Notes under the pieces: generated by a model
Databases searched by the model: none
What the model saw: only the letters and a program-made list of their open reading frames with translations
What the model was told of the DNA's origin: nothing
Shown: in pieces, positions 34,701-54,746 of the stretch
Position numbering within the stretch: the stretch's first letter is position 1
Layout of the letters: every line of letters starts with the position of its first letter
NCBI RefSeq assembly: GCF_020037125.1
Contig: NZ_JAIQDG010000043.1
Span: forward strand, 1 to 64,000
Reading direction: 5' to 3'
DNA length: 64,000 bases
Origin: Myxococcus sp. RHSTA-1-4
GTDB lineage: Bacteria > Myxococcota > Myxococcia > Myxococcales > Myxococcaceae
Made by a program: the position numbers and the translations under genes

Positions 34701-37700
34701 GTAGTGGTTGAACACCTCGCACCCGGGCCGGAGCGCCCGCACCTGGTCGATGAGGGCCCAATCCGCCGCCTCGCCGCCCAGCACCAGCCGCTGGCGCGGG
34801 AGGACCCGGCCGGGGGCCTCCGAGGCCAGCAGCGCGCGCAGATGAGAGGGGACGATCTTCAGGCAGTCCACCGAATGCCGCTCGAAGTAATCCCCCAGCG
34901 CGGCGGCGTCGGATGCGACGTCGGTGGCCACCAGGTGCAGGGTGCCGCCCAGGGCCAGCGCCGGGAACAGGGCGGTGTGCCCCAGGTCCGCGGCGAGCGT
35001 GGAGACGGACGCGGAGTTCACGCCTTCCGGCAGCGAGAGCCGCTGGATGATGCCCCGCACGTAGCGGACGATCTGCCGGTGCTCGATGGCCACGCCCTTG
35101 GGCCGCCCCGTGGAGCCGGACGTGAAGATGACGTAGGCGAGGTTGCCCGGTGCGGCGGTGCACGGCCCCGCGTCCGCGCCGTAGCGCGCGAGCATGCCGG
35201 CGTCCGTGTCGAGCCGGACGACGGTGGCGGCATGGCCCTGGAAGCGCTCGTGCGGGAGACCGGCCGTCACCACCACGCGAGCACCCGCGGCGTCCAGCGC
35301 CCCGCTCAGGCGCTCGGTGGGGAACGCCGGATCCAGCGGTACGTAGGCGCCGCCGGCCTTGAGGATGCCCAGCAGGCCCACCATCGCGTCGACGCGCCGC
35401 TCCAGGCACAGCCCCACCGGGACGTCGGGCCCCACCCCGAGGGTGCGCAGGTGGCCCGCGAGCTGGTTCGCGCGGGCGTCCAGCTCGCGGTACGTCAGTG
35501 ACTCGCCACCCGCCACGACGGCGACCCGCTCGGGAACGCGGGCCGCCTGGGCTTCGAAAAGTTGATGCAGGCAGGCGTCGTCCGGCAGCGACGCGCTGGG
35601 GTTCCACTCCACCAGCAACCGATGCTGCTCCGAGGCATCGAGCAGCGGCAGCTCGGCCACCCGCAGGTCCGGCCGGGCGACCGCGGCCTCGAGCAGCGTG
35701 GCCAGGTGCCGCACCATGCGCTCGCCCGTCGCGGCCTCGAAGAGGTCCGCGCTGCACTGGAGCACTCCGGCGAAGCCCTCGCGGGTGTCGGAGAGATTGA
35801 GGGAGACCTCGAACTTCGCCAGCCCCGTGTCGAGCGCCACCGGCCGCAACGACAAGCCGGGAAGACTCAGCTCCGGCAGCGGGTCCTGCTGGAACGCGAG
35901 CATCGCCTGGAAGAGCGGAGTCCGCCCCAGGTCGCGCGCGGGCCGCAGCGCCTCCACGAGCTTTTCGAAGGGCACGTCCTGGTGCGCGTAGGCGCCGAGC
36001 GTCGTCTCCCGCACCCGCTCCAGCACTTCGCGGAAGCTCGGGTTCCCCGTCAGCTCCGTCCGCAGGACCAGGGTGTTCACGAAGAAGCCGATGAGCCCCT
36101 CCGTCTCCACCCGGGGCCGGCCCGCAACGGGAGTGCCCACACACACGTCCTGCTGGCCCGCGTACCTGCCCAGCAGCACCTGCCATCCCGCGAGCAGCAC
36201 CATGAAGGGCGTCAGCCCCTCCCGCTTCGCCAGCGCCTTCACGTCCTCCGACAACGTTCTCGACAGCCGCGCCGGCACCGTGTGGCCCCGGGAGGACGGA
36301 GCGGACGGCCGGGGCCGGTCCGTGGGCAGCTCCAGCGCCGACGGCGCCCCACGCAACCGCTCCCGCCACCACGCCAGTTGCGCTTCAAGCGCCCCACCCT
36401 CCAGCCACTCCTGCTGCCAGCCCGCCCAGTCCGCGTATTGGATGGGCAGCTCCGGCAACGGCGACGGCGCCCCGCGCAGGTACGCCGCATAGAGCGCGCC
36501 CACCTCCTTCACCAGCACGCCCATGGACCAGCCGTCCGAGACGATGTGGTGCATCACCAGCACCAGGACGTGCTCGTGCACTCCCGCCCTCAGCAGCGTG
36601 GCGCGCAGCAACGGCCCCGTGGACAGGTCGAACGGACGCCGCGCCTCCTCGCGCGCGAGCCCCACCACGGCGGCTTCCCGCTCCGCCGCCGGCAGGCTGC
36701 TCAGGTCGACGAGCGGGATGACCAGCGGCAGCGTCTCGGCGATGCGCTGGACGGGAACACCGTCGCGGGTGACGAACGCGGTCCGCAGCGTCTCGTGGCG
36801 CCGCGCCACCTCGGCGAAGCATCGCTCCAGCACCGCGGCATCCAGCGTGCCCTCCAGCCGGACCGCGGCGGAGATGTTGTACGCGGGGCTGCCGCGCTCG
36901 AGCTCATCCAGGAACCACAGCCGGAGCTGGGAGAAGGACAGCAGGGGTTCCCCATGCCGTTCCCCGCGCATGAGCGGAGGCGGCGTCATGTCCCCGGCGC
37001 GAGCGCGCTGGGCGAGCACGCGCTCCGCCAGCTCCGCCACGCTGGGCCCCTGGAGGAGCACCGCCATGGGCAGCACGACGCCGAGCCCCTTCTCGATTTC
37101 GTGGCTCAGCTCCACGGCCGCCAGTGAGTCCAGGCCGAGCCGGGTGATGGGCACCTCGAGGGAGACTTCCTCGGGAGCGACGCCCAGCCGCGCGGCCACG
37201 CGGTTGCGGAGCCAGCGCTCCGGCGTCCCGTCCGGCTCCGCGGGCGCCATCACGCGGGACTGCCCCTCCTTCCAGACCGCCACGGTGCGCAGCGCTCCGG
37301 ACAGGAAGCCCGCGCGGCAGGCGTGCCGCTGGATCTTCCCGCTGGACGTCTTCGGGATGCTGCCCGGCTCCAGCAACAGCACCTCGTGCGCCTGCACCTC
37401 GTGGTGCTCGCTGAGTGCCTGGCGGAGCGCGGCCAGGACCTCGGCGGGTTCCGCGCCGTGGCGCGGGTCCACCTCCTGCACCAGCACCAGGCGCTCCTCG
37501 GCCTCGACCTCCACGGCGAAGGCCGCGCCGCAGCCGGGCCGGAGCGCGGGATGGGCCTGCTCCGCCGTCCGCTCCAGGTCCTGGGGATGGTGGTTGCGGC
37601 CGCGCAGGATGACGAGGTCCTTGAGCCGCCCGGCGACGAACAGCTCCCCGCGCAGCAGGAAGCCCAGGTCGCCCGTGCGCAGGTAGCGCTCCTCGCCGCC

Positions 37701-39032
37701 GCTGGCCAGCCGCGCCTGGAAGGTGGCCTCGCTCGCCTCGGGACGCTGCCAGTAACCCTGGGCGATGCTGGGCCCCCGGACCCAGATCTCCCCCACCTCG
37801 CCCTCCGCGCAGCGGGTGCGCGCTTCCGGGTGGACGATGAGCAGCTCCTGGTCCGGCAGTGACGGGCCGCAGGCCACCAGCTCCCGCGCGCCGGCCGTGC
37901 CCGCGTCGACCTCCACCGCACGCGAGTGCTCCAGCGCCGCGGCATCCAGGGTGCGCGCCATCGCCCCCGTCCCCTGCTCGACGCCGGTGACGATGAGCGT
38001 GCCCTCCGCCAGGCCGTAACAGGGATAGAGGGCGCGCTGCTGGAAGCCGCGCGGGCCGAATGCCTGCTTGAAGCGCTCCAGCGTGTCCGTCCGGATGGGC
38101 TCGGCTCCGCAGAAGGCGACCTCCCACGACGAGAGGTCCAGGGACGCCCGGGCCTCTTCCGGGATGCGCCGCACGCACAGGTCGAACGCGAAGTTCGGCC
38201 CGCCACTGATGGTGCCGCGGTGGCGCGAGATGGCCTCGAGCCAGCGCTGGGGCCGCTTCAGGAACGTCAGCGGCGACATCAGCACCGTGGGGAAGGCGCC
38301 GTACAGGGGCTCGAGGATGCCGCCGATGAGCCCCATGTCATGGTAGGGCGGCAGCCAGATGACGCCCGTGCTGCCGGGGCCCACGCGGAAGCTGCGGGCA
38401 ATGGCCTCCAGGTTGTGCAGGAGGTTGGCGTGGCTGAGCATCACCCCCTTGGGCGTGCCCGTGGAGCCGGAGGTGTACTGGAGGAAGGCCAGCGACCGGG
38501 GACCCACGTCCGCCGCGCGCCACCCGGCCTCGCCTCCCTCCGGCAGCGCGTCCGTGGCAACCCAGTGCAGCCCCTTCAGGTCCGGCGCCTGCTCGAAGAG
38601 GAATTCCCCCATCGACAGGATGAACGAGGTCGTGAGCACCGCCGTGGCCCGCGCGTCCTGGATGATGGCCTGCAGGCGCGGCAGCGTGCGCTCCAGCCGC
38701 GACGGGTCCGGTGGATACGCGGGCACCGCCACCAGCCCCGCGTAGAGGCAGCCGAAGAAGCCGGCGATGTATTCGAGCCCGGGGGGATAGAGCAGCACCA
38801 CCCGCGTCCCCGGCTCCAGGCCGCCCAGCGCCCTGGCAATCCGCCTCGCGCGCGCGTCCAGCTCTCCGTAGGTGCAGGGGGTCTCCTCCCCCTCCACTTC
38901 CTCGAGGAAGGTGTACAGCCGCTCCCGGGATTTCTCGGCGCTGCGGACTCCCAGCAATTCCACCAGCGAGGTGAAGGTGGGCTTCGGGGATGAAGACAAC
39001 CGTGGCTCGAGAAAAGGACTGGCGGACGTCAT
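22788..39032 (-). CDS. FAAL-initiated NRPS: FAAL-ACP-C-A-T-C-A-T-E-C-A-T-C-A-T
   Basis: 5414-residue synthetase that starts the central assembly line. A fatty acyl-AMP ligase (1-590, TSGSTG near 186) loads an ACP (LGLDSL near 634). Then: C (HHIVSDGW near 829), A (near 1306), T (1698), C (HHIVADGW near 1896), A (2371), T (GGDSI near 2753), epimerisation domain (2805-3245, [10 protein letters not shown] near 2940), C (HHLLMDGW near 3413, expected D-acceptor type), A (3883), T (4281), C (HHIVSDGW near 4479), A (4955), T (GGNSL near 5328) and a charged 50-residue tail, probably a docking region. Pocket residues by eye: A1 DLTKVGHVG (Asp), A2 DACTIAAVC (unassigned), A3 DFWNIGMVH (Thr), A4 DACTIAGVC (unassigned). 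The E domain implies a D-residue at position 2. The start has only a weak Shine-Dalgarno. Confidence 0.95.
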
Positions 39033-39110: not shown

Positions 39111-40397
39111 ATGGCTAAGATTGTCATTGCCCCGCTGCCGGTACCAGGCCACGTCAATCCAACGCTCAAGCTCGCGAGAGTCCTGAGGGACGCGGGGCAC
39201 CACGTCGTCTACGCATCCATGCCGGACATGGGGACGAGGCTGCGCGCGGAGGGGTTCGCCTTCGAGCCGCTCTTCGAGGCCGCATATCCTCCGGGCTCGC
39301 TGGAGGCGCTTCCGTCACATTCCGGTAACGCGCTGGCGCTGCTGAGGATGATGCGGCGGGAGGTCCGGCGCCAGGACGCCATGCTCCAGGCGATGCTGGA
39401 CGGGGAGCTGGAGCGGCGGCTGGGCCCCTTGAAGCCCGACCTGTTCCTCTACGATGAGAAGCTGCGTCACATCCCCCCTGTCGCCCATGGCATGGGGCTG
39501 CCCACCGTGCGCTTCAGCGTGACGGTGCCGCCCCAGCTCCTCCCGCCGGAAGCCCCCGGGCGTGTCCACCGGCCACCGCCCCGCTCCGTGGAGCGTGTCC
39601 TCTCGGCGCTGAGCCTGGCGCCACGCATGAGCTGGTACTTCGACCAGCTCGCGAGGAAGCACGGCTACCCGGGGAGGCTCGACACGCCCGCGCTGCGGCG
39701 GGACGGGCGCCCCATGGCGGACCTGCTCTTCTTCCCCGAGGCCTTCGTCGGCGCGGGAAGGGACCTCCCCGGGGAGCGCTACCACGTGGGACCACTCGTC
39801 GACGTGGATCGCCAGGAGCCGGACCTTCCCTGGGAGCGCATTCCCGAGGGCGGGCCGCTCGTCTTCTTCTCCCTGGGGACACTGGCCTTCTCCACGCCCA
39901 GGGCACCACGGCTGGTGCGCGCCATGCTGGAGGCCGCCGCCCAGCGCCCGCAGTGGCGCTTCGTGCTCGCGGTGGGGGGGACGCTGCCTCCCGGCACGCT
40001 CGGCACGGCGCCTCCCAATGCGCTCGTCGTGGGCCACGCGCCGCAGCTGCGGCTCCTCCAGAAGGCCGACGTCATGGTGAACCATGGCGGCACCAACAGC
40101 GTGAAGGAGTGCATCTACTTCGGCGTCCCCATGGTGGCGGTGCCGCTGCAGCATGACCAGCCCGCCATCGCGAGGCTCGCGGCGCACCACGGCGTGGGGA
40201 CCTGCCTGCCACCCGAGGAGTTCACCGCGAAGAGCGTGCTGGCCCACCTGGACGAAGTGCTCGGCAACCCGGCCTGCCGGAGCGCCGTCACCCGGATGCG
40301 GGAGCTGTTCCGGGAGGCCGATGCGCCCGGCCGCATCACCGCCGTCATCGACGACATCCTCCAGCGCTTCCAGCCCGCACGGGCGGCGTCCATGTAA
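39111..40397 (+). CDS. GT1-family glycosyltransferase (UGT/macrolide-GT type)
   Basis: 428-residue GT-B enzyme. The N terminus (PLPVPGHVNPTLKLARVL) and the C-terminal donor-binding block (HGGTNSVKE then GVPMVAVPLQHDQ, around residues 325-350) are characteristic of UDP/dTDP-sugar-dependent transferases that decorate natural products. This family differs from the GT4-like enzyme at 9017-10459, so two different glycosyl transfers are possible. First gene of a three-gene + strand unit with the nucleotidyltransferase and second exporter. The sugar and acceptor are unknown; glycosylation of the lipopeptide for tailoring or for self-protection are both reasonable. Confidence 0.9.
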   Translation: MAKIVIAPLPVPGHVNPTLKLARVLRDAGHHVVYASMPDMGTRLRAEGFAFEPLFEAAYPPGSLEALPSHSGNALALLRMMRREVRRQDAMLQAMLDGELERRLGPLKPDLFLYDEKLRHIPPVAHGMGLPTVRFSVTVPPQLLPPEAPGRVHRPPPRSVERVLSALSLAPRMSWYFDQLARKHGYPGRLDTPALRRDGRPMADLLFFPEAFVGAGRDLPGERYHVGPLVDVDRQEPDLPWERIPEGGPLVFFSLGTLAFSTPRAPRLVRAMLEAAAQRPQWRFVLAVGGTLPPGTLGTAPPNALVVGHAPQLRLLQKADVMVNHGGTNSVKECIYFGVPMVAVPLQHDQPAIARLAAHHGVGTCLPPEEFTAKSVLAHLDEVLGNPACRSAVTRMRELFREADAPGRITAVIDDILQRFQPARAASM

Positions 40398-40488: not shown

Positions 40489-41688
40489 ATGGTCCAAGCC
40501 GCTCCGCAGACAGCGACCCGTGCGTTCTCGGGCATCGATGCCGATGCCGTGGCCATCCTCCAGCGTCTGCAGGCGGGCGGGTTCCAGGGGTACCTGGTGG
40601 GCGGGTGCGTGCGGGACGAGCTGCTCGGTCATCCGCCGAAGGACTTCGACATCGCGACCAACGCCCGCGCGGATCAGGTCCAGGAGCTGTTCCCCGAGTG
40701 CCGGTTGCTGCCCGGACGCGGTTCGGTGCTCGTGCACGTGCATCGCGGCGGCAAGGTCTTCGACGTCGCCACCCTGCGCCCGCTCCGGACGCCGGCCGGC
40801 ACGCCGCTGCTGGCGCCGGACGCGGACCTCGTGGCGGTGGCGCGCACGGTGGAGGTCGGCACGGTGGCGCAGGACGCGGAGTCCCGCGACTTCTCCGTCA
40901 ACGCGCTCTACTACGACGTGGCCGCCGGCCAGGTCCTCGACTTCGTCGGGGGGCTGGCCGACGCGCGCGAGCGGGTGCTTCGCTCCCTGGGCGAGCCCAC
41001 GCTTCGCTTTCGCGACGACCCCTCACTCGTCTACCGCGCCGTCCGCATCGCCGCGCGGCGGGCGCTGACCATCGAGCCCCGGACGCTGGAGGCCCTGCGC
41101 GAGGGCGTCGCCGCCCTTCCGACGTGTCCGTTCCCGCTCCGCGCCCATGAGCTGCTCGAGTCGCTGGACGGCGGCGCCGCCGCCCCCTGTCTCCGGCGGT
41201 TCCGGGAGCTGGGCGTGCTGGAGGCCACGATGCCGCCGCTGATGATGCTGCTGGAGCGGCTCGGCCCGCCGGCGTGGAATGGCCTGCTCGCCTTCGCCGA
41301 GGCCATGGACCGGCTGCATGGGCGCGGCCGGAAGCTGGGGCCCGCGGCCCGGCTGGCGTGTGTCCTGCTGCCGCTGGTGCGCCAGGCTCCGCGTCCTCCG
41401 GGCACCCCAGGTGAGACGGCCTCCGCGGCCGGGGCCATGCTGCCCATGCTCGCCGGGCTCGACCAGGGCGCCGCCCTCCCGCTGTTGAAGCACGGCGTGG
41501 CACTGCTCGAGGCCCAGCAGGCGCTGCTCGCCGGTCCGGGGGCTCTGGCGGCCGGCACCGTGCGGAGCTCTCCCCTCTTCGCCGAGGCGCTCGCCGTCCT
41601 CGAAGTCACCATCGAGGCCACGAACGGCCCCCGGGAGCTCCTGGAGGGCTGGTCCACGCGGAGCGCGGCCGAGGGGCGCGTGGCATGA
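40489..41688 (+). CDS. Poly(A)-polymerase/CCA-adding-like nucleotidyltransferase
   Basis: 399-residue member of the class II tRNA nucleotidyltransferase/poly(A) polymerase superfamily. Visible motifs: GGCVRD (about residue 38) for nucleotide binding; the DFDIAT catalytic Asp pair (about 52); SRDFSVNALYYD (about 131), matching the family RRDFxxNALYY motif; and a RAVRIAARRALTIEP stretch like the family RAVRFAA helix. The catalytic core therefore looks intact, while the C-terminal half is Ala/Leu/Pro-rich and poorly recognisable. I chose ATG 40489, preceded by AAGGA; GTG 40474 is possible. It overlaps the exporter ATG (ATGA). A housekeeping RNA enzyme is unexpected here; transfer of a nucleotide to the peptide or another small molecule is an untested possibility, and a displaced RNA enzyme is the alternative. 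Confidence 0.85.
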   Translation: MVQAAPQTATRAFSGIDADAVAILQRLQAGGFQGYLVGGCVRDELLGHPPKDFDIATNARADQVQELFPECRLLPGRGSVLVHVHRGGKVFDVATLRPLRTPAGTPLLAPDADLVAVARTVEVGTVAQDAESRDFSVNALYYDVAAGQVLDFVGGLADARERVLRSLGEPTLRFRDDPSLVYRAVRIAARRALTIEPRTLEALREGVAALPTCPFPLRAHELLESLDGGAAAPCLRRFRELGVLEATMPPLMMLLERLGPPAWNGLLAFAEAMDRLHGRGRKLGPAARLACVLLPLVRQAPRPPGTPGETASAAGAMLPMLAGLDQGAALPLLKHGVALLEAQQALLAGPGALAAGTVRSSPLFAEALAVLEVTIEATNGPRELLEGWSTRSAAEGRVA

Positions 41689-43325
41689 AGCTGCTCGCGC
41701 TGCTCTTCCAGGCGTCCCGGGGGCGCTTCGTCTTCGCCGTCCTCTGTGGACTGCTCTCCGGCGCCTGTGGGGCCGGCCTCGTCGCGCTCATCAACCAGGT
41801 CCTCTCGCGCCAGCTTCCCTCGGGCACGGCGCAGCTCGGCCTGTTCGGCGGGCTCGTCCTGGTGGCGCTCGTCTCGCGAATCCTCGCCCAGGTGTTCGTC
41901 AGCCAGATCAACCAGGATGCGCTCTTCGAGATGCGCCTGAAGACCAGCGAGCGCATCGTGGCCGCGCCGCTGCGGCAGCTCGAGGAGAGCGGAGCCCACC
42001 GGCTGCTGGCGGCGCTCACCGAGGACCTCTTCCACCTCAGCAACGCCATGGCGATGCTGCCCCGGCTGGTCATCAACGCCTCCACCGTGCTGGGCTGCCT
42101 CGTCTACATGGTGTGGCTGTCTGAGGTGCTGCTGCTGGCACTGGTGCTGTGTCTCGCCCTGGGCATCGCCACGTACCGTCTGTCCACCTCGCGGGCGCTC
42201 CGGGACTACCGCACCGCGCGCGAGGAGCAGGACGAGCTCATCCGGCACTTCCGCGGGCTGACGGACGGCATCAAGGAGCTCAAGCTGCACTCCCGCCGGA
42301 AGGATGACTTCCTCGCGCGGGTGGTCGCCACGACGGCCGAGCGCGTCCGCCACCTCCAGAAGCGGGCGGCCACCGCGTTCGCCATCGGTTCGAGCTGGGG
42401 GATGTTCCTCTTCTTCGCCGTCATCGGCGTATTGCTCTTCCTGCTGCCCCGGCTCGCGCCGGTGAGCGACGCGGCGATGGTGGGCTACACGCTGGCCGTG
42501 CTGTACCTCCAGCAGCCCTTGATGGGACTCATGGAGGGCATGCCCATGATCTCCCGGGGTCAGGTCTCGTTCATCAAGCTGCAGGAGCTGGGCCTGTCGC
42601 TGGAGGCGTCATCCGAGTCCGTGCATGGCCGCGCGAGCCTCGAGTCGCGCCCGCGCTTCTCCCGGCTGGAGCTGGCCGGCGTGACGCACAGCTACCGGCG
42701 CGAGCACGACGACAAGACCTTCACGCTGGGCCCCATCGACCTGGTCCTTCAACCGGGCGAGCTGCTCTTCCTGGTGGGCGGCAACGGCAGCGGCAAGACG
42801 ACCCTGGCCAAGCTGCTCACCGGGCTCTACGTGCCACAGCACGGGCAGGTCCTGCTGGACGGGCGCCCCGTCACCACGCAGGAGCTGGAGCAGTACCGCC
42901 AGCACTTCTCGGCGGTGTTCTCCGACTTCCACCTCTTCGACCGGCTGCTGGGCGTGGGCTCCGACTTCTCACAGGTGCGGCCCTACCTGGAGCGGCTGCA
43001 GCTCGAGCACAAGGTGCGGCTCGAAGGCGATGCCTTCTCCACGACGGAGCTCTCCCAGGGACAGCGCAAGCGCCTGGCGCTGGTGGCGGCCTTCCTGGAG
43101 GACCGCCCCATCTACCTCTTCGACGAGTGGGCGGCGGACCAGGACCCCAGCTTCAAGGAGGTCTTCTACCGGGAACTGCTCCCGGAGCTGAAGCGGCGTG
43201 GCAAGGCCGTGGTGGTCATCTCCCATGACGACCGCTACTTCGACGTGGCGGACCGGCTCCTGCACCTGGAGTCCGGCCGCCTCCTGCCGGAGGGGACCTC
43301 CCCCGTCCGCAGGGTGGCTTCCTGA
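41685..43325 (+). CDS. Second cyclic-peptide export ABC transporter
   Basis: 546-residue fused permease-ATPase, paralogue of 7350-8978 with the same motif set: Walker A GGNGSGKTT, signature SQGQRKRLAL, Walker B FDEWAADQDP, and the same FTLGPIDL lead-in. The N-terminal region has several hydrophobic segments. The start codon overlaps the nucleotidyltransferase stop (ATGA), so the two are probably translated together. Known members export siderophore precursors and cyclic lipopeptides. The two exporters sit behind different genes and have diverged, so they may serve different products or different stages such as periplasmic delivery versus outward export. Confidence 0.93.
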   Translation: MKLLALLFQASRGRFVFAVLCGLLSGACGAGLVALINQVLSRQLPSGTAQLGLFGGLVLVALVSRILAQVFVSQINQDALFEMRLKTSERIVAAPLRQLEESGAHRLLAALTEDLFHLSNAMAMLPRLVINASTVLGCLVYMVWLSEVLLLALVLCLALGIATYRLSTSRALRDYRTAREEQDELIRHFRGLTDGIKELKLHSRRKDDFLARVVATTAERVRHLQKRAATAFAIGSSWGMFLFFAVIGVLLFLLPRLAPVSDAAMVGYTLAVLYLQQPLMGLMEGMPMISRGQVSFIKLQELGLSLEASSESVHGRASLESRPRFSRLELAGVTHSYRREHDDKTFTLGPIDLVLQPGELLFLVGGNGSGKTTLAKLLTGLYVPQHGQVLLDGRPVTTQELEQYRQHFSAVFSDFHLFDRLLGVGSDFSQVRPYLERLQLEHKVRLEGDAFSTTELSQGQRKRLALVAAFLEDRPIYLFDEWAADQDPSFKEVFYRELLPELKRRGKAVVVISHDDRYFDVADRLLHLESGRLLPEGTSPVRRVAS

Positions 43326-43378: not shown

Positions 43379-44254
43379 TCAGGCCGGGTTCTTGCGGATG
43401 GTGACCTGGAAGCCCTTCCGCACCACCTGGAGGTCGGAGGCGGCGGCGGTCAGGAACGCATCGATGCCGATGTCCGGCCGTGGCATGTGCGAGTGCGGCG
43501 TGAGCTGGGCGGTGGCCATCCCGTAGTCGTCGAAGATCATCCACCCGCCCGGCCGCAGCAGGCGCCAGCTCAGCACGGCGTCCTCCAGGGTGTCGTAGGT
43601 CTGGTGCGAGCCGTCGACGTAGATGAAGTCGAACGTGGGCTCCGGCGCCATGCGGCGCAGCACCACGGAGGAGGCGCCAGCCAGCTTCTCCACGCGGTCC
43701 GCGGCGCCGCTCGCGGCGATGTTCTCGTCGAAGAGCTTCGTGTACTCGCCGTTGAAGAGGTCGACGCAGGTGATGCGGCTCGTCGGATGGGTGAGCACGT
43801 TCTCCAGCAGCCAGATGGCCGAGCGGCCCTCGAAGCTGCCAATCTCCAGGGCCCTGACCCCGGGCTTGCCGGCCAGCGGCGCGAGCGTGTCACGCCACTC
43901 CGCCTCGCACTTCGACATCCAGTCCGAGGAGAACCGGTACCGGCCCACCTGCCGCGCCGCGGGATTGCGCTCCAGGTAGGAGTGCAGCGCCGCCTTCGTC
44001 TCGGGAGCAACCCACGGCATCTGCAGCAGCCGCTCGACGGCGACACGCGCCGCGAGCCGCAGGTTGTCCGCGGACGCCGCATGGGGCCCGAGCTGGGCGA
44101 CCGCTCCATCCTTCACCAGCGCCCCCGCCGCCTCCACGTCCCTGAGCCAGCTCACCACACCCGCGTTCGCGTCCGGCCCCGGCGACCTCAAGAGCTCCTG
44201 CACGCGGGCAGCGAGCGATGCGACCTTCGCGGCGACATCTACTCCTGGATTCAC
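43379..44254 (-). CDS. Class I SAM-dependent methyltransferase
   Basis: 291 residues. The SAM-binding loop is visible as ALEIGSFEGRSAIWLLE (about residues 134-150), followed by an acidic ITCVDLF strand end and the FIYVDGSHQTYDTLEDA and LRPGGWMIFDDYG blocks. This pattern is typical of Methyltransf_24-type O-methyltransferases. The N-terminal 120 residues are helical-looking and specific to this protein. Start is GTG 44254, with AAGGAAGG upstream. Stand-alone gene, convergent with the exporter and divergent from the unrecognised gene at 44410. It could O-methylate a hydroxylated residue or the sugar; the substrate is unknown. Confidence 0.82.
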   Translation of the reverse strand: MNPGVDVAAKVASLAARVQELLRSPGPDANAGVVSWLRDVEAAGALVKDGAVAQLGPHAASADNLRLAARVAVERLLQMPWVAPETKAALHSYLERNPAARQVGRYRFSSDWMSKCEAEWRDTLAPLAGKPGVRALEIGSFEGRSAIWLLENVLTHPTSRITCVDLFNGEYTKLFDENIAASGAADRVEKLAGASSVVLRRMAPEPTFDFIYVDGSHQTYDTLEDAVLSWRLLRPGGWMIFDDYGMATAQLTPHSHMPRPDIGIDAFLTAAASDLQVVRKGFQVTIRKNPA

Positions 44255-44409: not shown

Positions 44410-45567
44410 ATGCACGACACCCGCCTCCTGGTGACCTCCATCGTTCGTATCTCCGGCATTGGGGAGAGCAGCGGGTACGTGCGCCTCGTCAGCCGGAAGG
44501 AGCGCCGGGTCCTGGCAACGTGGCCCACGCCGGAGAGCCCCTACCGCCAGTTCGATCTCAATCCGCGGGGCGGGCTCCGGGGCGGACGCGGCATCGGTGC
44601 GGACTCGGAGCGGGTGGTCATCGCCATGACGGATCGCCTCTTCGTTTTTGATCGCTCCTGGCGGCAGGTGGGTGAGCTGACGCATCCGCTGTTCGGCGAG
44701 GTGCACGACATCCTCGTGGAGCAGGACGGCGTCTGGGTGACGGCCAGCGCCTCGGACCGGTTGGTCAAGCTGGGCTGGGACGGGACGCTGCTGCGATCAT
44801 GGAGCTGGCGGGATGACCCGGCCCTCGTCGAAGCGCTGGAGCTGCACGACGCGCCCGCGGACGACGCCAACGCCGACTATCGCGATCCGCGCCAGCTCCC
44901 TCCCGTCTACGACTTCGTCCACCTGAACGGCGTGTCCCGCGCCCCGGAAGGGCTGCTGCTGTCCTTCGGCTTCGTCGCCTCCAGCGTCACGCGGCGGCTC
45001 CAGCGGGTGCTGGGCCTGCCCGGGGTGCTCCTCAAGAAGCTGGGCTTCGACACGGGCATGTCACGTCCCTCGCGGACGTTCGCGTTGCGCTTCCTGTCCT
45101 CGCGGATCTCCACCTCGTCCTGGCATGGCGTCCTCCTGCCGGACCAGGGAGCCGCGCGTCTCGTCACCCGGATGGACGGCGTCAAGATTCCCAACCACAA
45201 CCTGCTGCGGCACGGGGACGCCTTCGTCTTCAACGACACCCACTCCAGCCACCTCGTGCGGCGGGCGGTGGATGGGAGCCGGACGGAGCAGGTGCGGGTT
45301 CCGGGAAGCCCGGCGTTCGCCCGGGGACTGGCCCCGCTGGGGGGGAGCCGGTTCGCCGTCGGCAGCCAGCGCCCCGCGGCGCTGTACGAGATCGACTTCG
45401 ACGACCTGAGCTGCGAGCCACTCTGCGAGCTGAGCACGCACCCGCACGAATGTGTCTACGGAATCCATGCCGTGCCGGACGGCTTCGGTGAGCCGCCCGC
45501 CCGGCTCTTCGAGAGCGCGGCCCCGCCGAAGGACGCGGGGCCCTGGGAGCAGGCGCGCGTGGCGTGA
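44410..45567 (+). CDS. Unrecognised protein, propeller-like
   Basis: 385 residues that I do not recognise with confidence. The sequence shows repeated short beta-rich units in which a turn follows a hydrophobic strand (GEVHDILVEQDGVWVTASASDRLVKL; LPDQGAARLVTRMDG; GDAFVFNDTHSSHLVRRAVDG; LGGSRFAVGSQRPAALYEID), which resembles a beta-propeller or NHL-like fold. There is no signal peptide, membrane segment or obvious catalytic motif. ATG 44410 is preceded by CGGAG. It sits alone between a methyltransferase and the diaminopropionate genes. It could be a tailoring enzyme, a binding or scaffold protein, or unrelated; I infer no function. Confidence 0.7.
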   Translation: MHDTRLLVTSIVRISGIGESSGYVRLVSRKERRVLATWPTPESPYRQFDLNPRGGLRGGRGIGADSERVVIAMTDRLFVFDRSWRQVGELTHPLFGEVHDILVEQDGVWVTASASDRLVKLGWDGTLLRSWSWRDDPALVEALELHDAPADDANADYRDPRQLPPVYDFVHLNGVSRAPEGLLLSFGFVASSVTRRLQRVLGLPGVLLKKLGFDTGMSRPSRTFALRFLSSRISTSSWHGVLLPDQGAARLVTRMDGVKIPNHNLLRHGDAFVFNDTHSSHLVRRAVDGSRTEQVRVPGSPAFARGLAPLGGSRFAVGSQRPAALYEIDFDDLSCEPLCELSTHPHECVYGIHAVPDGFGEPPARLFESAAPPKDAGPWEQARVA

Positions 45568-45582: not shown

Positions 45583-46596
45583 TCAGCGCTTCAGCTCGAA
45601 GAAGAAGTCGGGCACGCGCAGCGCCTTGCCCTCGGCCACGGCGCGCTCGTAGACCCAGTGGCCCACCGCGAGGTCCAGCACCCCGAGCCCGAAGGGGCTG
45701 AAGAGGACCGGACGCGAGCGGTCCACCTTGCACTCGCCGCGGATGAGCTGGGCCAGCGTGCCGGTGACGAAGCCACGGCCGCCGGTGAGCTTCTCCGCCA
45801 GGTGCGGCGACGTGTTCGCCTTCATGACGTGCTCCACGTCATCGACGATGTTGTACGAGCGCAGGAGCAGCTCGGGCGCGATGTCCCGCAGGGAGATGTG
45901 GAGCACCACGGGGTTGTGCGCCAGCAGCTCCGGGTCGTGGATGTGGGGCGTGGCGGCCGTGGTGGCCAGGACGATGACGTCGCTGCGCCGCAGGCACGTG
46001 TTCAGGTCCGGAGCCGAGCCCACGCGCTGGTGGCGGCCGGGGATGCACACCTCGCGGGCGAAGCGCTCCGACTCGCCGGGGGTACTGTCGTGGAGGAGGA
46101 CCTCGTCCACCTCCCAGCCGGACTGCATGAAGAACTGGTAGATGTAGCGGGCGATGAGGCCGTTGCCGACGATGCCCAGGCAGCGGGCCTTGCGCTGGCC
46201 GCCGTTCATCCACTGCGCGCCCAGCACGGCCGAGCCGGCGGTGCGCGCCGCGGAGATGATGGAGGACTCCAGGCACGCGAACGGATAACCCGTGTCGTAG
46301 CTGTTGAGGATGAGCACCGCCGAGGCGCGCGGGAAGCCGCGCTGCACGTTGGACGGGTAGCTGGCAATCCACTTGATGCCGGACACGTCCACGTCGCCGC
46401 CCAGGTAGGCCGGGAGGGCGATGATGCGGGCGTCGGGCTTCTCGGGGAAGCGGAGGAAGTAGCTGTCCGGGTTGACGGAGCGGCCGTCCTGGTGCGTGAG
46501 GTAGGCCGCCTCCACGCGGCGGATGCACTCGGCCACGTCGCCATGGATGACGTCGTGAGCCACCTTGCCGGAGATGATGGAGAAGTCGAAGCTCAT
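45583..46596 (-). CDS. sbnB: SbnB-like N-(2-amino-2-carboxyethyl)-L-glutamate dehydrogenase
   Basis: 337 residues of the ornithine cyclodeaminase/mu-crystallin superfamily. In the staphyloferrin B pathway SbnB oxidatively cleaves the SbnA product with NAD to give L-2,3-diaminopropionate and 2-oxoglutarate. Visible here: the nucleotide-binding loop GIVGNGLIARYI, the preceding GAQWMNGGQRKARC segment and HISLRDIAPELLL. I chose ATG 46596 because the protein then begins MSFDFSIISG and is almost the length of SbnB; ATG 46632 would add 12 residues overlapping sbnA. It lies 14 bp downstream of the sbnA stop. The pairing with SbnA makes the assignment much firmer than the superfamily alone would. Confidence 0.9.
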   Translation of the reverse strand: MSFDFSIISGKVAHDVIHGDVAECIRRVEAAYLTHQDGRSVNPDSYFLRFPEKPDARIIALPAYLGGDVDVSGIKWIASYPSNVQRGFPRASAVLILNSYDTGYPFACLESSIISAARTAGSAVLGAQWMNGGQRKARCLGIVGNGLIARYIYQFFMQSGWEVDEVLLHDSTPGESERFAREVCIPGRHQRVGSAPDLNTCLRRSDVIVLATTAATPHIHDPELLAHNPVVLHISLRDIAPELLLRSYNIVDDVEHVMKANTSPHLAEKLTGGRGFVTGTLAQLIRGECKVDRSRPVLFSPFGLGVLDLAVGHWVYERAVAEGKALRVPDFFFELKR

Positions 46597-46610
46597 GTGG
46601 CGGGTGTCGC

Positions 46611-47564
46611 CTACTCGAGGCGAGATGTCCACTGGGGGTTGTAGAGGGTTTCGAGGTAGGCCGCCCCGCCGTCCGCGCAGAGGAAGAGGACGTTGGGCGG
46701 CGTGAGCGAGCGCATCTTCGGGAGGTAGCGCTTGACGGCGGCGTACGCCGAGCCGGACGAGCCGCCGACGAAGAGGCCATGGCGCCGCAGCAGCTCCTGG
46801 CAGGCCTGGGCCGTCTCGCTCTCCGGAACGCGCACGACGTCGTCGATGCGCGCCTGTTTCACCAGGTCGGGGACGATGCTGGCGCCGATGCCGGGGATGT
46901 GCCGCTTGCGAGGCGTGCCGCCGAAGATGACCGAGCCCTCGGCGTCCACGGCGATGATTCTCACCGAGGGGAACTTCTCCTTGAGCCGGTGAGACACGCC
47001 GGAGATGGTGCCGCCGGTGCTGACGCCCAGGAAGACGTAGTCCAGCGTGGTGAAGGCGCGGGCAATCTCCTCGCCCGTGAGCCGGTAGTGGGCCTCGAGC
47101 GCATCCGGATTGCCGTACTGGTTGGTCCAGTAGGCGCCCGGGGTGCTGTCCACCAGCTCCTTCACCTTGGCCAGCCGCGTCTTGAGGAATCCGCCGGTGT
47201 CGTCGCGCTGCTCCACCTTGACGACACGCTCGCAGAGCCGCCGCAGGGAGGACTCATAACCCGGGGTGATGTTCGGATCGATGACCGGAACGAAGGACAG
47301 CCCGAGCAGCCGGCAGTACGAGGCCAGGGCGTTGGCGAAGTTCCCCGAGGAGGACTCGACGATGGTGCTGCCGGAGTCGATCTGCCCGCGCTCCAGCGCG
47401 GACTTGAGCAGCCAGTACGCGGGCCGGTCCTTCACACTGCCAATGGGGTTGTGCCCCTCCAGCTTCGCGTAGAGGTTGATGCCCTCGTACTTCAGGGGCA
47501 GCACGGGAGTCTCCCGGAGGAGCGCCCCCAGGGTCGCCATGCGTTGCGCCAGCTCGTTGGACAT
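46611..47564 (-). CDS. sbnA: SbnA-like PLP-dependent N-(2-amino-2-carboxyethyl)-L-glutamate synthase
   Basis: 317-residue fold-type II PLP enzyme of the cysteine synthase family. SbnA condenses O-phospho-L-serine with L-glutamate to form ACEGA, which SbnB converts to diaminopropionate. Visible: PLP lysine in GSVKDRPA (about residue 45), the substrate loop ESSSGNFANA (about 70-79) and the phosphate-binding GVSTGGTISG (about 180-189). First gene of a two-gene minus-strand operon with sbnB. An ordinary cysteine synthase is the alternative, but adjacency to an SbnB-like gene inside an NRPS locus favours diaminopropionate supply for the assembly line. Confidence 0.9.
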   Translation of the reverse strand: MSNELAQRMATLGALLRETPVLPLKYEGINLYAKLEGHNPIGSVKDRPAYWLLKSALERGQIDSGSTIVESSSGNFANALASYCRLLGLSFVPVIDPNITPGYESSLRRLCERVVKVEQRDDTGGFLKTRLAKVKELVDSTPGAYWTNQYGNPDALEAHYRLTGEEIARAFTTLDYVFLGVSTGGTISGVSHRLKEKFPSVRIIAVDAEGSVIFGGTPRKRHIPGIGASIVPDLVKQARIDDVVRVPESETAQACQELLRRHGLFVGGSSGSAYAAVKRYLPKMRSLTPPNVLFLCADGGAAYLETLYNPQWTSRLE

Positions 47565-47686
47565 CTCATCACTCGTTCGGCCAGTCTCTCTTCGGCCGAC
47601 TGTCGTCCGTTGGATATGACGACACGGGTGTATTTATTCGGCTCAGGGTGGATTTGTATAGAGCCCCCACCGAATCAGGAGTCTGT
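47565..47686. promoter_or_regulatory. Divergent promoter region, sbnAB / threonine synthase
   Basis: 122 bp between divergent starts. TTCGGCC occurs at 47576-47582 and 47591-47597 (15 bp apart), and TTCGGC again at 47637-47642, a possible operator series. ATTTGTAT at 47652-47659 followed by GAGCCC resembles the element before the gene at 44410. AGGAG lies 5 nt before ATG 47687. No promoter boxes can be assigned firmly. Confidence 0.4.
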
Positions 47687-48925
47687 ATGTCGCAGGAGCA
47701 CATGACCGCGCTGCGCTGCGTCCATTGTGGACAACGCCACCCCGTGGACGCGGTCGCGTACACGTGCCCGCACTGCGGCATCGAGGGCATCCTCGATGTG
47801 GAGTACGACTACAACGAGGTGGCGGGCACGCTGACCCGGGAGGCGCTGGCGGCGCGGCCCCTGAATCAGTGGCGCTACGAGGAGCTGCTGCCGCTCGACG
47901 CCCGGGCGGAGCGGCCCGCGCTGCACGTGGGGATGACGCCGGTGTACGAGTCCCCTGCCCTGGCGCGGGACGTGGGGCTGGAGCGGCTGGTGCTGAAGGA
48001 CGAGGGCCGCAACCCGACGGGTTCGTTCAAGGACCGCTCGAGCGCGCTGGCGGTGATGAAGGCGCGGGAGGCGGGGCGGGACACGGTGGCGTGCGCGTCG
48101 GCCGGTAACGCGGCGGCGTCACTCGCGGGCTTCGCGGCGGTGATGGGGGTGCGGAGCGTCATCTTCGTGCCCCAGCGGACGCCGGAGCCGAAGCTGGCGC
48201 AGCTCCTGGTGACGGGGGCTCGGGTCCTTCGGGTGGAAGGCAGTTATGACGACGCGTACTGGCTCTGTCAGGCCGCGTGCGAGCGGTACGGCTGGTACAA
48301 CCGCAACTGCGCCATCAACCCCTACCTGGTCGAGGGAAAGAAGACTGCGGGCCTGGAGCTGGCGGAGCAGCTCGGCGCGCGGATGACGGACTGGGTGGCG
48401 GTGTCCGTGGGGGATGGCTGCACGCTCGCGGGCATCTGGAAGGGCCTGAAGGAGATGAAGCGGCTGGGCCTCATCGAGCGGCTGCCGCGGATGATGGGCG
48501 TTCAGGCGGCGGGCGCGGCCCCCGTGGCGGCGGCGATGGAGACCGGTGCGCTGAAGCCCATGGAGGCGCGGACGCTGGCGGACTCCATCGCGGTGGGCTG
48601 GCCCCGCAACTGGCGCAAGGCGGTTGACGCAGTGCGCGAGTCCGGGGGCTGCTTCGTGAGCGTGGAGGACGCGGAGATGCTCGCGGCGCAGGGACAGCTG
48701 GCGCGGAGGACGGGGGTCTTCGCGGAGCCCGCGGCGGCGGCGGCCCTGGCGGGACTGGTGCGCGCCGTCCGTGAGAAGCGCGTGGACCCGGCGGAGAGCG
48801 CGACCGTGGTCGTCACCGGGCATGGCTTGAAGGACGTGCGCACGGCGATGCAGGCCCTGGAGGCACCGTTGGACGTGGCGCCCCGCGTCGAAGCAATGGA
48901 GGCGCTGCTCGCGCGAATAGGGTGA
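47687..48925 (+). CDS. thrC: Threonine synthase
   Basis: 412-residue fold-type II PLP enzyme that converts O-phosphohomoserine to threonine. The N terminus carries a zinc-ribbon-like pair of Cys-x2-Cys motifs (CVHCG and CPHCG), seen in some threonine synthases. The PLP lysine lies in NPTGSFKDRSSALA (about residue 120), followed by CASAGNAAASLAGFAA and a VSVGDGCTLAGIWKG phosphate loop. I chose ATG 47687 because AGGAG precedes it; GTG 47648 lacks a comparable site. One A domain of the large NRPS has a Thr pocket, so this gene may boost Thr supply. Other readings are a resistant copy protecting the host from a threonine synthase inhibitor, or a homologue with altered chemistry. Confidence 0.87.
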   Translation: MSQEHMTALRCVHCGQRHPVDAVAYTCPHCGIEGILDVEYDYNEVAGTLTREALAARPLNQWRYEELLPLDARAERPALHVGMTPVYESPALARDVGLERLVLKDEGRNPTGSFKDRSSALAVMKAREAGRDTVACASAGNAAASLAGFAAVMGVRSVIFVPQRTPEPKLAQLLVTGARVLRVEGSYDDAYWLCQAACERYGWYNRNCAINPYLVEGKKTAGLELAEQLGARMTDWVAVSVGDGCTLAGIWKGLKEMKRLGLIERLPRMMGVQAAGAAPVAAAMETGALKPMEARTLADSIAVGWPRNWRKAVDAVRESGGCFVSVEDAEMLAAQGQLARRTGVFAEPAAAAALAGLVRAVREKRVDPAESATVVVTGHGLKDVRTAMQALEAPLDVAPRVEAMEALLARIG

Positions 48926-49046
48926 CGGCGTCACAGCGGCCAGACGCTTGACCTACGGGAAACCCACGATTTCTCGTGCTCCACCCAACAACGTTGACTT
49001 ATCAGCCATATCGGATTCTAACCCTCCCACTGAATCCGGCGCCTCG
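48926..49046 (+). promoter_or_regulatory. Promoter/leader region of the right-hand NRPS-PKS operon
   Basis: 121-bp spacer before the FAAL gene. TTGACT at 48994-48999 matches a -35 box well; a plausible but poor -10 (TTCTAA, 49016-49021) follows at 16 bp. The sequence just before the start (GGATT...CCCAC.GAATC.GG) loosely resembles the leader before the threonine synthase gene. The assignment rests on position plus the -35-like hexamer. Confidence 0.4.
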
Positions 49047-52000
49047 ATGAGTTTCCTGCAAACCCTAGAAACGCGTGCGGCTTCGAGTCCCGAGTCGCTG
49101 GCCTTCACCTTCTTGTCCGATGGAGAGTCCGAAGAGACTCACCTGACCTACGGACAGGTGCTTCAGCGCACACGCGAGGTCGGCGGGCTGCTGCAGGAGG
49201 CGGGCGCGCGCGGCGAGCGCGTGTTGCTGCTGTTCCCTCCGGGGCTGGACTACCTCATCGCCTTCCTCGGCTGCATGCAGGCGGGGGCGGTCGCGGTTCC
49301 CGCCTACCCGCCGGACCCGTCGCGCCTGGGCCGCACGCTGCCCCGGCTGGACGCGCTGACCGCCGACGCGCAGGCGCGCTTCGTGCTGGCACCCGCGTTC
49401 ATTCGCGACATGGCCGGCGAGTTCTTCGACCAGGCCGGCGCGCTCGCCAGCGCGCGGTGGCTGGCCATCGAGGACGCGGGACCCGCGCACGCGAGCGGCT
49501 GGAAGGACCCGGGGGCGACTCCGGAGACGGTGGCCTTCCTCCAGTACACGTCGGGGTCCACCGGCTCGCCGCGCGGCGTGGTGCTCACCCACGCCAACCT
49601 CATCCACAACTCGAACGCCATCCAGCGCTGCTTCGAGCACGACTCGCGCAGCGTGGGCGTCATCTGGCTGCCGCCCTACCACGACATGGGGCTCATCGGC
49701 GGCATCCTGCAGCCGCTGCACGCCGGCTTCCCCGTCGTGCTGATGTCGCCGCTGGACTTCCTGGCGCGCCCGATGCGCTGGCTCCAGGCGGTGTCGCGCT
49801 ACCGCGCCACCACCAGCGGCGGGCCCAACTTCGCCTATGAGTTGTGCGTCCGGAAGGCCACTCCCGAGCAGATCGCGCAGCTCGACCTGAGCTCGTGGAG
49901 CCTGGCCTTCAACGGCGCGGAGCCCCTGCACCCCGCCACGCTCCAGCGCTTCTACGAGACGTTCGCCCCCTGTGGTTTCCGCCCCGAGGCGATGTATCCC
50001 TGTTACGGGCTGGCCGAGGGGACGCTCATCGCCTCCGGAGGAAGGAAGGCGGCGCTCCCCGTGCAGCGCGCCTTCCGCAAGGACGCGCTGGAGCGCGACG
50101 AGGCCCTCTCCGTGCCCGCCACGGAGGAAGGCGCGCTGCACCTGGTGGGCTGTGGCACGCGCCTGCCGGACCAGGAGCTGCTCATCGTGGATCCGCGGAG
50201 CCGGCTCCCGCTGCCCGAGGGCCGGGTCGGCGAGGTCTGGCTGCGCGGGCCCAGCGTCGCCCAGGGCTACTGGAGCCGCCCCGAGGAGACGGAGGCCACC
50301 TTCCGCGCACGCCGCGCCGATGACGCCGCGGCAGGCCCCTACCTGCGCACCGGTGACCTGGGCTTCCTCCAGGAAGGCGAGCTGTTCGTCACCGGCCGCC
50401 TCAAGGACCTCATCATCGTCCGGGGCCGCAACCACTACCCGCATGACCTGGAGCGGACCGCCGTCGCGTGTCACCCCGCCCTGAGGCCCGGATGCTCCGC
50501 GGCCTTCGGCGTGGAGGCGGAAGGCGGCGAGCAGCTCGTGCTGGTGCAGGAGGTGGACACGCGCAAGGCGTTCGACGCGGCGGCCCTGGCGGAGAGCATT
50601 CGCCAGGCCGTGGCCGCGGAGCATGGCGTCCTCCTCCACGCGGTGGTGCTCATCGAGCCCGGCAGCCTGCCCAAGACGTCGAGCGGCAAGGTGCAGCGGC
50701 GCGCGAGCAAGGCGGCCTGGCTGGCCGGGCAGCTCTCGGTGGTGGCCAGTGACGTCCGGGCGGCGGAGGCGGAAGGGGCCGCGGAGTCTTCGGGTGCACC
50801 CGAGCTGCCGCCGCTGGCCGAGCTGCGCGCCCTGCCCCGCGACGCGCGCGAGGAGCGGCTCGTTTCGTGGCTGCTGGCTCGCGCCGCGACGGCGCTCCGG
50901 GTGCCCGCCTCGCGCATCGACCGGGCCGCGCCGCTCGTCCAGCTCGGCCTGGACTCGCTGGGCTCGGTGGAGCTGCGCGCGGACATCGAGAGTGCGCTCG
51001 GCGTCTCCATTCCCCTGCCGGAGCTGCTGGGCGGCCTCACCTTCGAGGAGCTGTCGCGGCGGTGTCAGGAGTCCCTGGAGAGCGGCCCGGGCGCGATGCT
51101 CCGGCCGGCCCCGGTGCCCCGCGGCGTGGACCTGCCGCTGTCGTACCCGCAGGAGGACATGTGGCTCGCCTCGCGGCTGGATGCCAGCGGCGGCGGCTAC
51201 AACATCTCCGCGGCGCTGAGCCTGCGGGGCGACCCGCGGCCGGCCTGGCTGGAGGCCGCCTTCCTCGAAATCGTCCGCCGCCACGAAGCGCTGCGGACCT
51301 GCTTCCCCGAGGTGGATGGCAGGCCGGTGCAGCGCATCCTGCCCCCCACGCCCATCCCGCTGCCGGTGGAGGACCTGCGCACGCTCGACGCGGCCGCACG
51401 CGAGGCCCGGGTCCAGCAGGCGGCGGTGGAAGAGGCACGCGCGCCCTTCGCGCTCCAGCACGGTCCCCTGCTCCGCGCGCGCCTGCTGCGGCTGGAGGAC
51501 TCGCGGTACGTGCTGCTCTTCACGGTGCACCACATCGCCGCGGACGGCTGGTCCATGCGCCTGCTCATCCAGGAGCTGACCGCCCTCTACTCCTCCTTCC
51601 AGAATGACGCGCCGCCCGCGCTTCCGCCCCTGCCGTACCAGTACGCGGACTTCGCGGTGTGGCAGCGCCAGCGGCTGGCGGGAGAGCACCTGGAGTCGCT
51701 GCTCGCGTGGTGGCGCGCGGAGGTGGCCGGGCTCCCCACCGAGCTGAAGCTGCCCACGGACCGCGAGCCCGCGGGCCCGCCGGACGCGCGCGGCGGCACG
51801 CTGAGCGTGTTGCTGCCCCCGGAGCTGCTGGCGCGGCTGCAAGGCGCGTGCGCCAGCCACGGCGTGACGCCGTTCATGTGGATGCTCGCGGGCTTCCAGA
51901 CGCTGCTGGCGCGCACCACCGGCCAGGAGGACGTGCCGGTGGGCGTGGCCGACCTGGGCCGCGGCGCCCCCGGCTCCGAGCGCCTCATCGGCAACTTCGT

Positions 52001-52541
52001 CAACATGTTGGTGCTGCGCACGCGGCTCGGCGGAGACCCGCCCTTCGCCGAGGTGCTGCGCCGGGTGAAGGCGTCCTCGCTGGGCGCCGCCGCCCACGCC
52101 GAGCTGCCCTTCGAGCAGCTCGCGCGCGGCCGTCCGCCCCTGTTCCGCGCCGCCTTCGGCACCCAGAACCAGCCGCGCGAGCGCCTGTCGCTGCCCGGCC
52201 TGGAAGTGGAGCCGCTCCTGTTCGACACCGGCGTGTCCCGCCTGGACCTCACGCTGTGGGCGTCCGAGACACCCGAGGGCCTGCGCTGCCACTGGACCTA
52301 CGCCTCGCGCCTGTTCGACGCGGCCAGCGTGGAGCGGCTGCACCGCCAGTTCGTGGGGCTGCTGGAGGCCACGCTGTCCCGCCCCGAGACGCGGCTGGCG
52401 GCCCTGCCCCTGGAGGCCGCGGATGACGCGACGGTGAAGGGCGCGCTGGGCAAGTTGGGCGCGCGGCGGCGGCGTGGCTCCGGGCCCGGCCCGGACGGAA
52501 GCAACACCCCCTCAGGCACACCCGGGAGTCACCAGCCATGA
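49047..52541 (+). CDS. FAAL-ACP-C lipid-loading protein
   Basis: 1164-residue starter protein of the right-hand line. The fatty acyl-AMP ligase (1-570, TSGSTG near 168, then the [13 protein letters not shown] block typical of FAALs) activates a fatty acid and loads it on an ACP (LGLDSL near 633). A complete C domain follows (LSYPQEDMW near 697, HHIAADGWS near 829) and then a basic, Ser/Pro-rich 40-residue tail, perhaps a docking region. There is no A domain, so the C domain must acylate an aminoacyl carrier on another protein, most simply the A-MT-T protein at 54747. I chose ATG 49047; the upstream frame to 48948 would add 33 residues with no family resemblance. Its stop overlaps the next start (ATGA). 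Confidence 0.93.
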   Translation: MSFLQTLETRAASSPESLAFTFLSDGESEETHLTYGQVLQRTREVGGLLQEAGARGERVLLLFPPGLDYLIAFLGCMQAGAVAVPAYPPDPSRLGRTLPRLDALTADAQARFVLAPAFIRDMAGEFFDQAGALASARWLAIEDAGPAHASGWKDPGATPETVAFLQYTSGSTGSPRGVVLTHANLIHNSNAIQRCFEHDSRSVGVIWLPPYHDMGLIGGILQPLHAGFPVVLMSPLDFLARPMRWLQAVSRYRATTSGGPNFAYELCVRKATPEQIAQLDLSSWSLAFNGAEPLHPATLQRFYETFAPCGFRPEAMYPCYGLAEGTLIASGGRKAALPVQRAFRKDALERDEALSVPATEEGALHLVGCGTRLPDQELLIVDPRSRLPLPEGRVGEVWLRGPSVAQGYWSRPEETEATFRARRADDAAAGPYLRTGDLGFLQEGELFVTGRLKDLIIVRGRNHYPHDLERTAVACHPALRPGCSAAFGVEAEGGEQLVLVQEVDTRKAFDAAALAESIRQAVAAEHGVLLHAVVLIEPGSLPKTSSGKVQRRASKAAWLAGQLSVVASDVRAAEAEGAAESSGAPELPPLAELRALPRDAREERLVSWLLARAATALRVPASRIDRAAPLVQLGLDSLGSVELRADIESALGVSIPLPELLGGLTFEELSRRCQESLESGPGAMLRPAPVPRGVDLPLSYPQEDMWLASRLDASGGGYNISAALSLRGDPRPAWLEAAFLEIVRRHEALRTCFPEVDGRPVQRILPPTPIPLPVEDLRTLDAAAREARVQQAAVEEARAPFALQHGPLLRARLLRLEDSRYVLLFTVHHIAADGWSMRLLIQELTALYSSFQNDAPPALPPLPYQYADFAVWQRQRLAGEHLESLLAWWRAEVAGLPTELKLPTDREPAGPPDARGGTLSVLLPPELLARLQGACASHGVTPFMWMLAGFQTLLARTTGQEDVPVGVADLGRGAPGSERLIGNFVNMLVLRTRLGGDPPFAEVLRRVKASSLGAAAHAELPFEQLARGRPPLFRAAFGTQNQPRERLSLPGLEVEPLLFDTGVSRLDLTLWASETPEGLRCHWTYASRLFDAASVERLHRQFVGLLEATLSRPETRLAALPLEAADDATVKGALGKLGARRRRGSGPGPDGSNTPSGTPGSHQP

Positions 52542-53599: not shown

Positions 53600-53646
53600 G
53601 CGGCACGGCAGGGAACGGCAGGTCGCGACAAACAAAAGGGGAGGAC

Positions 53647-54699: not shown

Positions 54700-54746
54700 C
54701 GGACCCCACCGCATTGCCCTTTCCCTGATTCTGGAGTGACAACACG

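Follow-up and report, generated by a model that had tools for sequence, protein, structure and literature searches.

A poly(A) polymerase paralogue paired with peptide exporters in myxobacterial lipopeptide clusters, possibly a nucleotidyltransferase acting on the product

The locus and its genes

The window analysed here is a stretch of 64,000 nucleotides of Myxococcus sp. RHSTA-1-4 (genome G000 of our survey), lying at the beginning of contig NZ_JAIQDG010000043.1. It carries a FAAL-NRPS/PKS lipopeptide cluster and, beside it, a nucleotidyltransferase gene that we call PAPx. The features are listed below; G118 and G119 are two other genomes with PAPx, and NT350 is a second nucleotidyltransferase described further on.

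9020-10459, minus strand: conserved protein of 480 aa, 67.5% identical to the G119 copy
10470-18245, minus strand: NRPS with two A domains, 2591 aa, same cluster
18242-22822, minus strand: PKS module, 1526 aa, same cluster
22788-39032, minus strand: FAAL-starting NRPS, 5414 aa, five AMP-binding domains (FAAL plus four A); 66% full-length identity to the NRPS beside the G119 PAPx
39111-40397, plus strand: UDP-glycosyltransferase-type glycosyltransferase upstream of PAPx (PF00201, 65 bits; MGT-like)
40489-41688, plus strand: PAPx, PcnB-derived nucleotidyltransferase paralogue, 399 aa (Pfam/NCBIfam, structure and alignment)
within PAPx: residues 52-54, catalytic DFD; D92, third acid; residues 133-138, RDFSVN; residues 176-180, motif D in degenerate form (DDPSL)
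41685-41688, plus strand: ATGA stop/start overlap between PAPx and the exporter, present also in G118 and G119, where the two genes follow each other in this order
41685-43325, plus strand: SyrD/PvdE-type cyclic-peptide/lipopeptide export ABC transporter, membrane and ATPase domains fused, 546 aa (TIGR01194, 518 bits against a cut-off of 286.2)
43379-44254, minus strand: SAM methyltransferase (Methyltransf_24), 68-70% identical to genes adjoining PAPx or NT350 in other clusters
44410-45567, plus strand: conserved cluster protein of 385 aa, no Pfam match; a homologue has weak SMP-30/propeller similarity

The PAPx gene starts at the ATG at 40489, preceded by AAGGA, stops at 41688 and has a GC3 of 0.91. 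Its product contains GGCVRD, DFDIAT and RDFSVNALYY, and matches the Pfam family PolyA_pol (PF01743) with 99 bits for a cut-off of 23. The reading frame, start, stop and poly(A)/CCA superfamily motifs that the sequence-only reading had assigned to this gene are thus borne out by the sequence and by the PolyA_pol match; so is the position that it had described, between a glycosyltransferase and a cyclic-peptide exporter joined to PAPx by an ATGA overlap. Among NCBIfam models the highest score is that of pcnB (TIGR01942; 211.6 bits, below the curated cut-off of 305.65), while the best CCA model reaches 108 bits, below its cut-off of 290. A phmmer search gave E. coli poly(A) polymerase I as the nearest solved structure (E 4e-41); modelled with AlphaFold (pLDDT 88), PAPx matches this enzyme over its full length with a TM of 0.75. 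Altogether, the pcnB model, the structure found by sequence search and the full-length match of the predicted model place PAPx with the PcnB-type and not with the CCA-type enzymes. No tRNA genes were found in the window.

The minus-strand cluster (9020-39032) is homologous from end to end to the G119 cluster, with identities of 66% for the FAAL-NRPS, 69% for the PKS and 67% for the second NRPS, and of 65% for the 385-aa protein. The G119 homologue of the 480-aa protein gave no Pfam, NCBIfam or PDB sequence match. Three further genomes (G025, G129 and G131) hold related clusters, at about 48% identity over 3000 residues of the FAAL-NRPS, 58% for the PKS and 49-50% for the second NRPS.

Two additional elements of the window deserve mention. 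A second TIGR01194-type exporter lies at 7299-8978; it is 51% identical to the one beside PAPx and has no PAPx neighbour. On the other side, from 45583 to 64000 and on to position 91823 of the contig, runs a second assembly line on the plus strand, with a FAAL-C at 48948 and its NRPS/PKS genes past the window, accompanied by SbnB/SbnA diaminopropionate genes (45583-47564, minus strand), a threonine-synthase-like gene and two TauD hydroxylases. This second assembly line, which borders directly on the PAPx cluster, probably yields a different product.

Origin, distribution and exporter pairing of PAPx

The genome of G000 (11.2 Mb, 100% complete) encodes three PolyA_pol proteins: a CCA enzyme, a housekeeping PcnB of 628 aa with its basic tail, and the window PAPx, which is 40% identical to this PcnB. 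Of the findings that would have spoken against the earlier reading, PAPx being the only CCA/poly(A) enzyme of the genome is contradicted by the separate CCA and PcnB genes, and its lacking a link to exporters elsewhere by SyrD-type exporters next to PAPx in all seven genomes that carry it.

When a profile of the PAPx set was run against 195 Myxococcota genomes, exactly seven PAPx were recovered (G000, G012, G021, G117, G118, G119 and G130, all within one myxobacterial family) at 533-629 bits, all other matches remaining at or below 378 bits, the level at which housekeeping PcnB begin. The seven form one clade with a support of 97/94, which branches inside the myxobacterial PcnB, and close pairs show dN/dS values of 0.21-0.27, that is, purifying selection. 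PAPx is therefore a single-origin duplicate of myxobacterial pcnB that was recruited into FAAL-NRPS/PKS lipopeptide clusters.

Other candidates were set aside. A “third copy” in G121 is a frameshifted housekeeping PcnB. The weak matches in G010 belong to another poly(A)-like group; they form a poly(A)/CCA-head-like pair about 11 kb apart (locus L039, 7312-8997 and 18257-19324) with the motifs VGGAxRDW and DVDIAVD. G137 and G139 have two weak matches each, about 10 kb apart, which likely belong to the same group as those of G010 and not to PAPx. The listed plasmid matches are pcnB or CCA genes of the ordinary kind, and a scan of genome contigs returned ordinary relatives only, in Methylophilaceae and Bdellovibrionaceae. 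The CCA-like gene of Paenibacillus polymyxa plasmid pSC2 has no peptide cluster nearby; it encodes a short CCA-like enzyme paired with a metallophosphoesterase (locus L070, 11180-12963), near an RtcB gene, and the arrangement resembles an RNA-repair set.

All seven PAPx genes directly adjoin a gene for a TIGR01194-type exporter on the same strand, in two opposite orders. In type A (G000, G118 and G119) PAPx precedes the exporter and the two are joined by ATGA in all three genomes; in type B (G012, G021, G117 and G130) the exporter comes first, with ATGA in two genomes and short gaps in the other two. The overlap is consequently present in five of seven pairs, in one of them onto the remnant of the G119 exporter. 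The recurrence of this adjacency in seven genomes makes the pairing a feature beyond chance. It is nevertheless one-directional, PAPx implying the exporter but not the reverse, since only 3 of 44 above-cut-off exporters in the surveyed genomes of the genus are accompanied by PAPx. In the exporter tree, a single origin of the PAPx-linked exporters is not rejected (p-AU 0.42), and types A and B are not demonstrated to form one clade.

Of the adjacent exporter of G119 only three pieces survive, which share 91-93% identity with the G118 gene; the reading frames of PAPx and the NRPS are uninterrupted, and a further exporter lies about 22 kb away. The remnant (locus L069, 8480-8960) has suffered two large internal deletions and keeps its ATGA junction to the intact PAPx.

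Active site of PAPx and the accompanying NT350

The signals that define catalysis in this superfamily are well preserved in PAPx: GGxVRD, DFD, the third acid and RDFxxN are retained in 7/7. Motif D behaves otherwise. It reads EDPVR in each of the 18 PcnB compared and EDGLR in the CCA enzyme of G000, whereas in PAPx it appears as DDPSL, ENPGM, DDPGG or NDPGI, so that the arginine of EDxxR is gone in all seven. Class II enzymes use this arginine, together with the aspartate, to select the base to be added; when the human CCA enzyme was put through a selection, no substitution was recovered at D165 or R168 of EDxxR (PMC11784652).

The basic tail of PcnB is also missing from PAPx. The RNA-binding domain PF12627 gives no match at E 0.001 in the window copy and matches weakly in three type-B copies (23-33 bits for a cut-off of 22). 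As a comparison of overall charge between PAPx and PcnB cores gave no separation in the expected direction, the argument for a loss of RNA binding uses just the score of this domain and the absence of the tail. This pattern, read from the sequences, fits a nucleotidyltransferase that would no longer be tailing RNA; the lost arginine could also mean a loss of activity.

A second nucleotidyltransferase accompanies the pair. In the four type-B loci, the gene immediately before the exporter encodes NT350, a protein of 350 aa with no Pfam family match. NT350 is present in 8 of the 195 genomes, namely in four of the seven PAPx operons and in four more clusters devoid of PAPx; it is absent from G000. 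Its model (pLDDT 85) matches a nucleotidyltransferase-like protein (3c18, Z 12.0), ANT(4'') (11.8), kanamycin nucleotidyltransferase (10.7) and LinB (10.5), and further ANT(6), AadA and AAD(9). The alignments to ANT(4''), kanamycin nucleotidyltransferase and LinB span 222-232 residues; these Z values are middling for a partly helical protein, but the antibiotic nucleotidyltransferases lead the matches and align along most of the chain. A W-R-D-x-D stretch and a glutamate are invariant, and D47, D49, E66 and E75 do not vary. The predicted structure thus indicates an ANT/KNTase/LinB-like fold with DxD and a third carboxylate. NT350 and PAPx occur together in four genomes; the nominal p for this within the family, 7e-4, overstates the association because the four share ancestry.

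The window block consists of the glycosyltransferase, PAPx, the exporter, the methyltransferase (reversed) and the 385-aa protein; that of G025, G129 and G131 consists of NT350, a glycosyltransferase, the methyltransferase (reversed) and the 385-aa protein. Given these matching blocks, NT350 and the PAPx-exporter pair share one neighbourhood in sister clusters; in type B both are present.

Genes of the penicillin-amidase family adjoin PAPx in G118 and G119 and occur also in several NT350 clusters, the sole homologue found in G000 being on a different contig. In the case of pyoverdine, acylated ferribactin matures after crossing the inner membrane, and PvdQ is a periplasmic Ntn acylase of the penicillin-amidase superfamily (PMC6206403). 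The analogy suggests that the peptides of the PAPx and NT350 clusters may likewise mature past the inner membrane. Among the PAPx and NT350 clusters, no phosphodiesterase or phosphatase that would remove a nucleotide was recognised.

Proposed function, its rivals and known systems

The reading that we favour, to which we give close to an even chance, is that PAPx is a cluster-borne nucleotidyltransferase that would act on the peptide or on its sugar ahead of export, either to protect the producer or as a prodrug tailoring step. Cytosolic PAPx would use an NTP to place a single nucleotidyl group on a hydroxyl or an amine of the lipopeptide or of its sugar, and this group would keep the lipopeptide inactive inside the cell; the product would then pass through the adjacent SyrD/PvdE-type exporter into the periplasm and there lose the nucleotidyl group to a hydrolase. 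Such a task would be the same as that proposed for NT350, with its ANT/LinB fold, in sister clusters. The idea of nucleotidylation gains support from the loss of the template arginine together with the occurrence of an ANT/LinB-fold enzyme within PAPx operons or in the corresponding block of sister clusters. PAPx, however, cannot simply substitute for NT350 in the four operons where both nucleotidyltransferases are present. Against this antibiotic-tagging reading count also the fact that the seven PAPx genes stand for two lineages only, and the case of G021, where about 12 kb containing transposase-like ORFs separate PAPx from the closest assembly-line genes.

Two rival explanations keep PAPx at work on RNA. 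The lipopeptide might inhibit poly(A) polymerase or the CCA enzyme, PAPx being a drug-resistant duplicate that sustains RNA tailing: a gene cluster that carries a duplicate of a housekeeping enzyme is classically taken to signal self-resistance, and PAPx is a PcnB paralogue that has retained the catalytic acids. Nevertheless, we find a resistant target improbable, since the base-selecting arginine is gone in 7/7, identity to the PcnB of the same genome is just 40%, the RNA-binding domain is weak (three type-B copies) or does not pass the E level given above (window copy), a target copy would not need such a strict coupling to an exporter, and PcnB is non-essential in E. coli. Alternatively, PAPx could act on an RNA or tRNA tied to the product, for instance as a specialised tailing or repair enzyme, as the full-length PcnB fold and the residual RNA-binding-domain match in type B would allow; yet the loss of EDxxR and of the basic tail, as well as the invariant linkage to a peptide exporter, make this unlikely.

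The exporter itself is central to the other two explanations. In one of them PAPx would regulate a protein by nucleotidylation, as a switch, with the ATPase of the exporter or a carrier domain of the NRPS as possible acceptors. The tight gene coupling, in both orders, speaks for it, and proteins of the nucleotidyltransferase fold can modify proteins, as MntA, which AMPylates HepT, and GlnE illustrate; both folds are among the structural matches of NT350. In G119, however, PAPx and the NRPS are intact beside an exporter in three pieces, although another exporter exists in that genome, and we regard the protein switch as rather unlikely. Finally, PAPx could be devoid of catalysis and serve the exporter as a scaffold or accessory that binds nucleotides. 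The loss of a key nucleotide-binding residue agrees with this, but all seven proteins, which are under purifying selection, retain GGxVRD, RDF and the three catalytic carboxylate positions, and a dead protein seems to us quite improbable.

If nucleotidylation of the product is admitted, a broader proposal follows, which we advance tentatively and hold somewhat short of an even chance: a poly(A) polymerase would have turned into a small-molecule nucleotidyltransferase that provides a removable cap for lipopeptide export, constituting a class of self-resistance that evolved independently of the ANT/LinB enzymes and acts beside one of them in the operon. If true, the RNA-tailing family would have given rise to antibiotic-modifying enzymes masked by standard annotation, which labels them CCA enzyme or poly(A) polymerase; NT350 and the PAPx-exporter pair would serve as mining markers for lipopeptide clusters with bioactive products, and resistance chemistry that is currently untracked would be flagged.

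Compared with PcnB (PF01743/TIGR01942; PDB 3aql and 3aqm), PAPx shares the full-length fold, motifs A and B and the catalytic carboxylates, and it branches inside the myxobacterial PcnB; it differs in the missing motif D arginine and basic tail, the weak RNA-binding domain, the 40% identity and the location in a biosynthetic cluster by an exporter. With class II CCA-adding enzymes it has in common the superfamily and the head domain, whereas its CCA score is far below its pcnB score, EDxxR is absent and the genome has a separate CCA gene. The chemistry proposed would be that of ANT(4''), kanamycin nucleotidyltransferase, LinB and AadA, whose fold is represented in PAPx operons by NT350; unlike them, PAPx is of the class II poly(A)/CCA type, has a different body and gave no ANT sequence match in family searches.

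From the export perspective, the acylated pyoverdine peptide, an NRPS product, most likely leaves the cytoplasm through an ABC transporter of the PvdE kind and is then trimmed by PvdQ (PMC6206403). The PAPx loci share this kind of exporter and, in G118 and G119, have the adjoining penicillin-amidase-family genes; they differ in that the pyoverdine pathway as described has no nucleotidyltransferase, and no acylase was found beside the window cluster. Regarding self-resistance, muraymycin offers a nucleotidyltransferase and phosphotransferase pair, known here by title alone (Cui et al. 2018, AAC.00193-18, cited in PMC6804068 and PMC10419868), which by that title resembles PAPx as a cluster-encoded nucleotidyltransferase for protection of the producer. 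In turn, the corramycin kinase ComG inactivates a myxobacterial NRPS peptide as self-resistance (PMC10996006); group transfer onto such a peptide is what is proposed for PAPx, while ComG is an APH-like phosphotransferase and not a nucleotidyltransferase. In the open-licence literature no report was found of an NRPS cluster that contains a CCA enzyme or PcnB, which is weak evidence of novelty. A cluster-borne nucleotidyltransferase is a known kind of enzyme; a PcnB-derived one in that role appears to be new.
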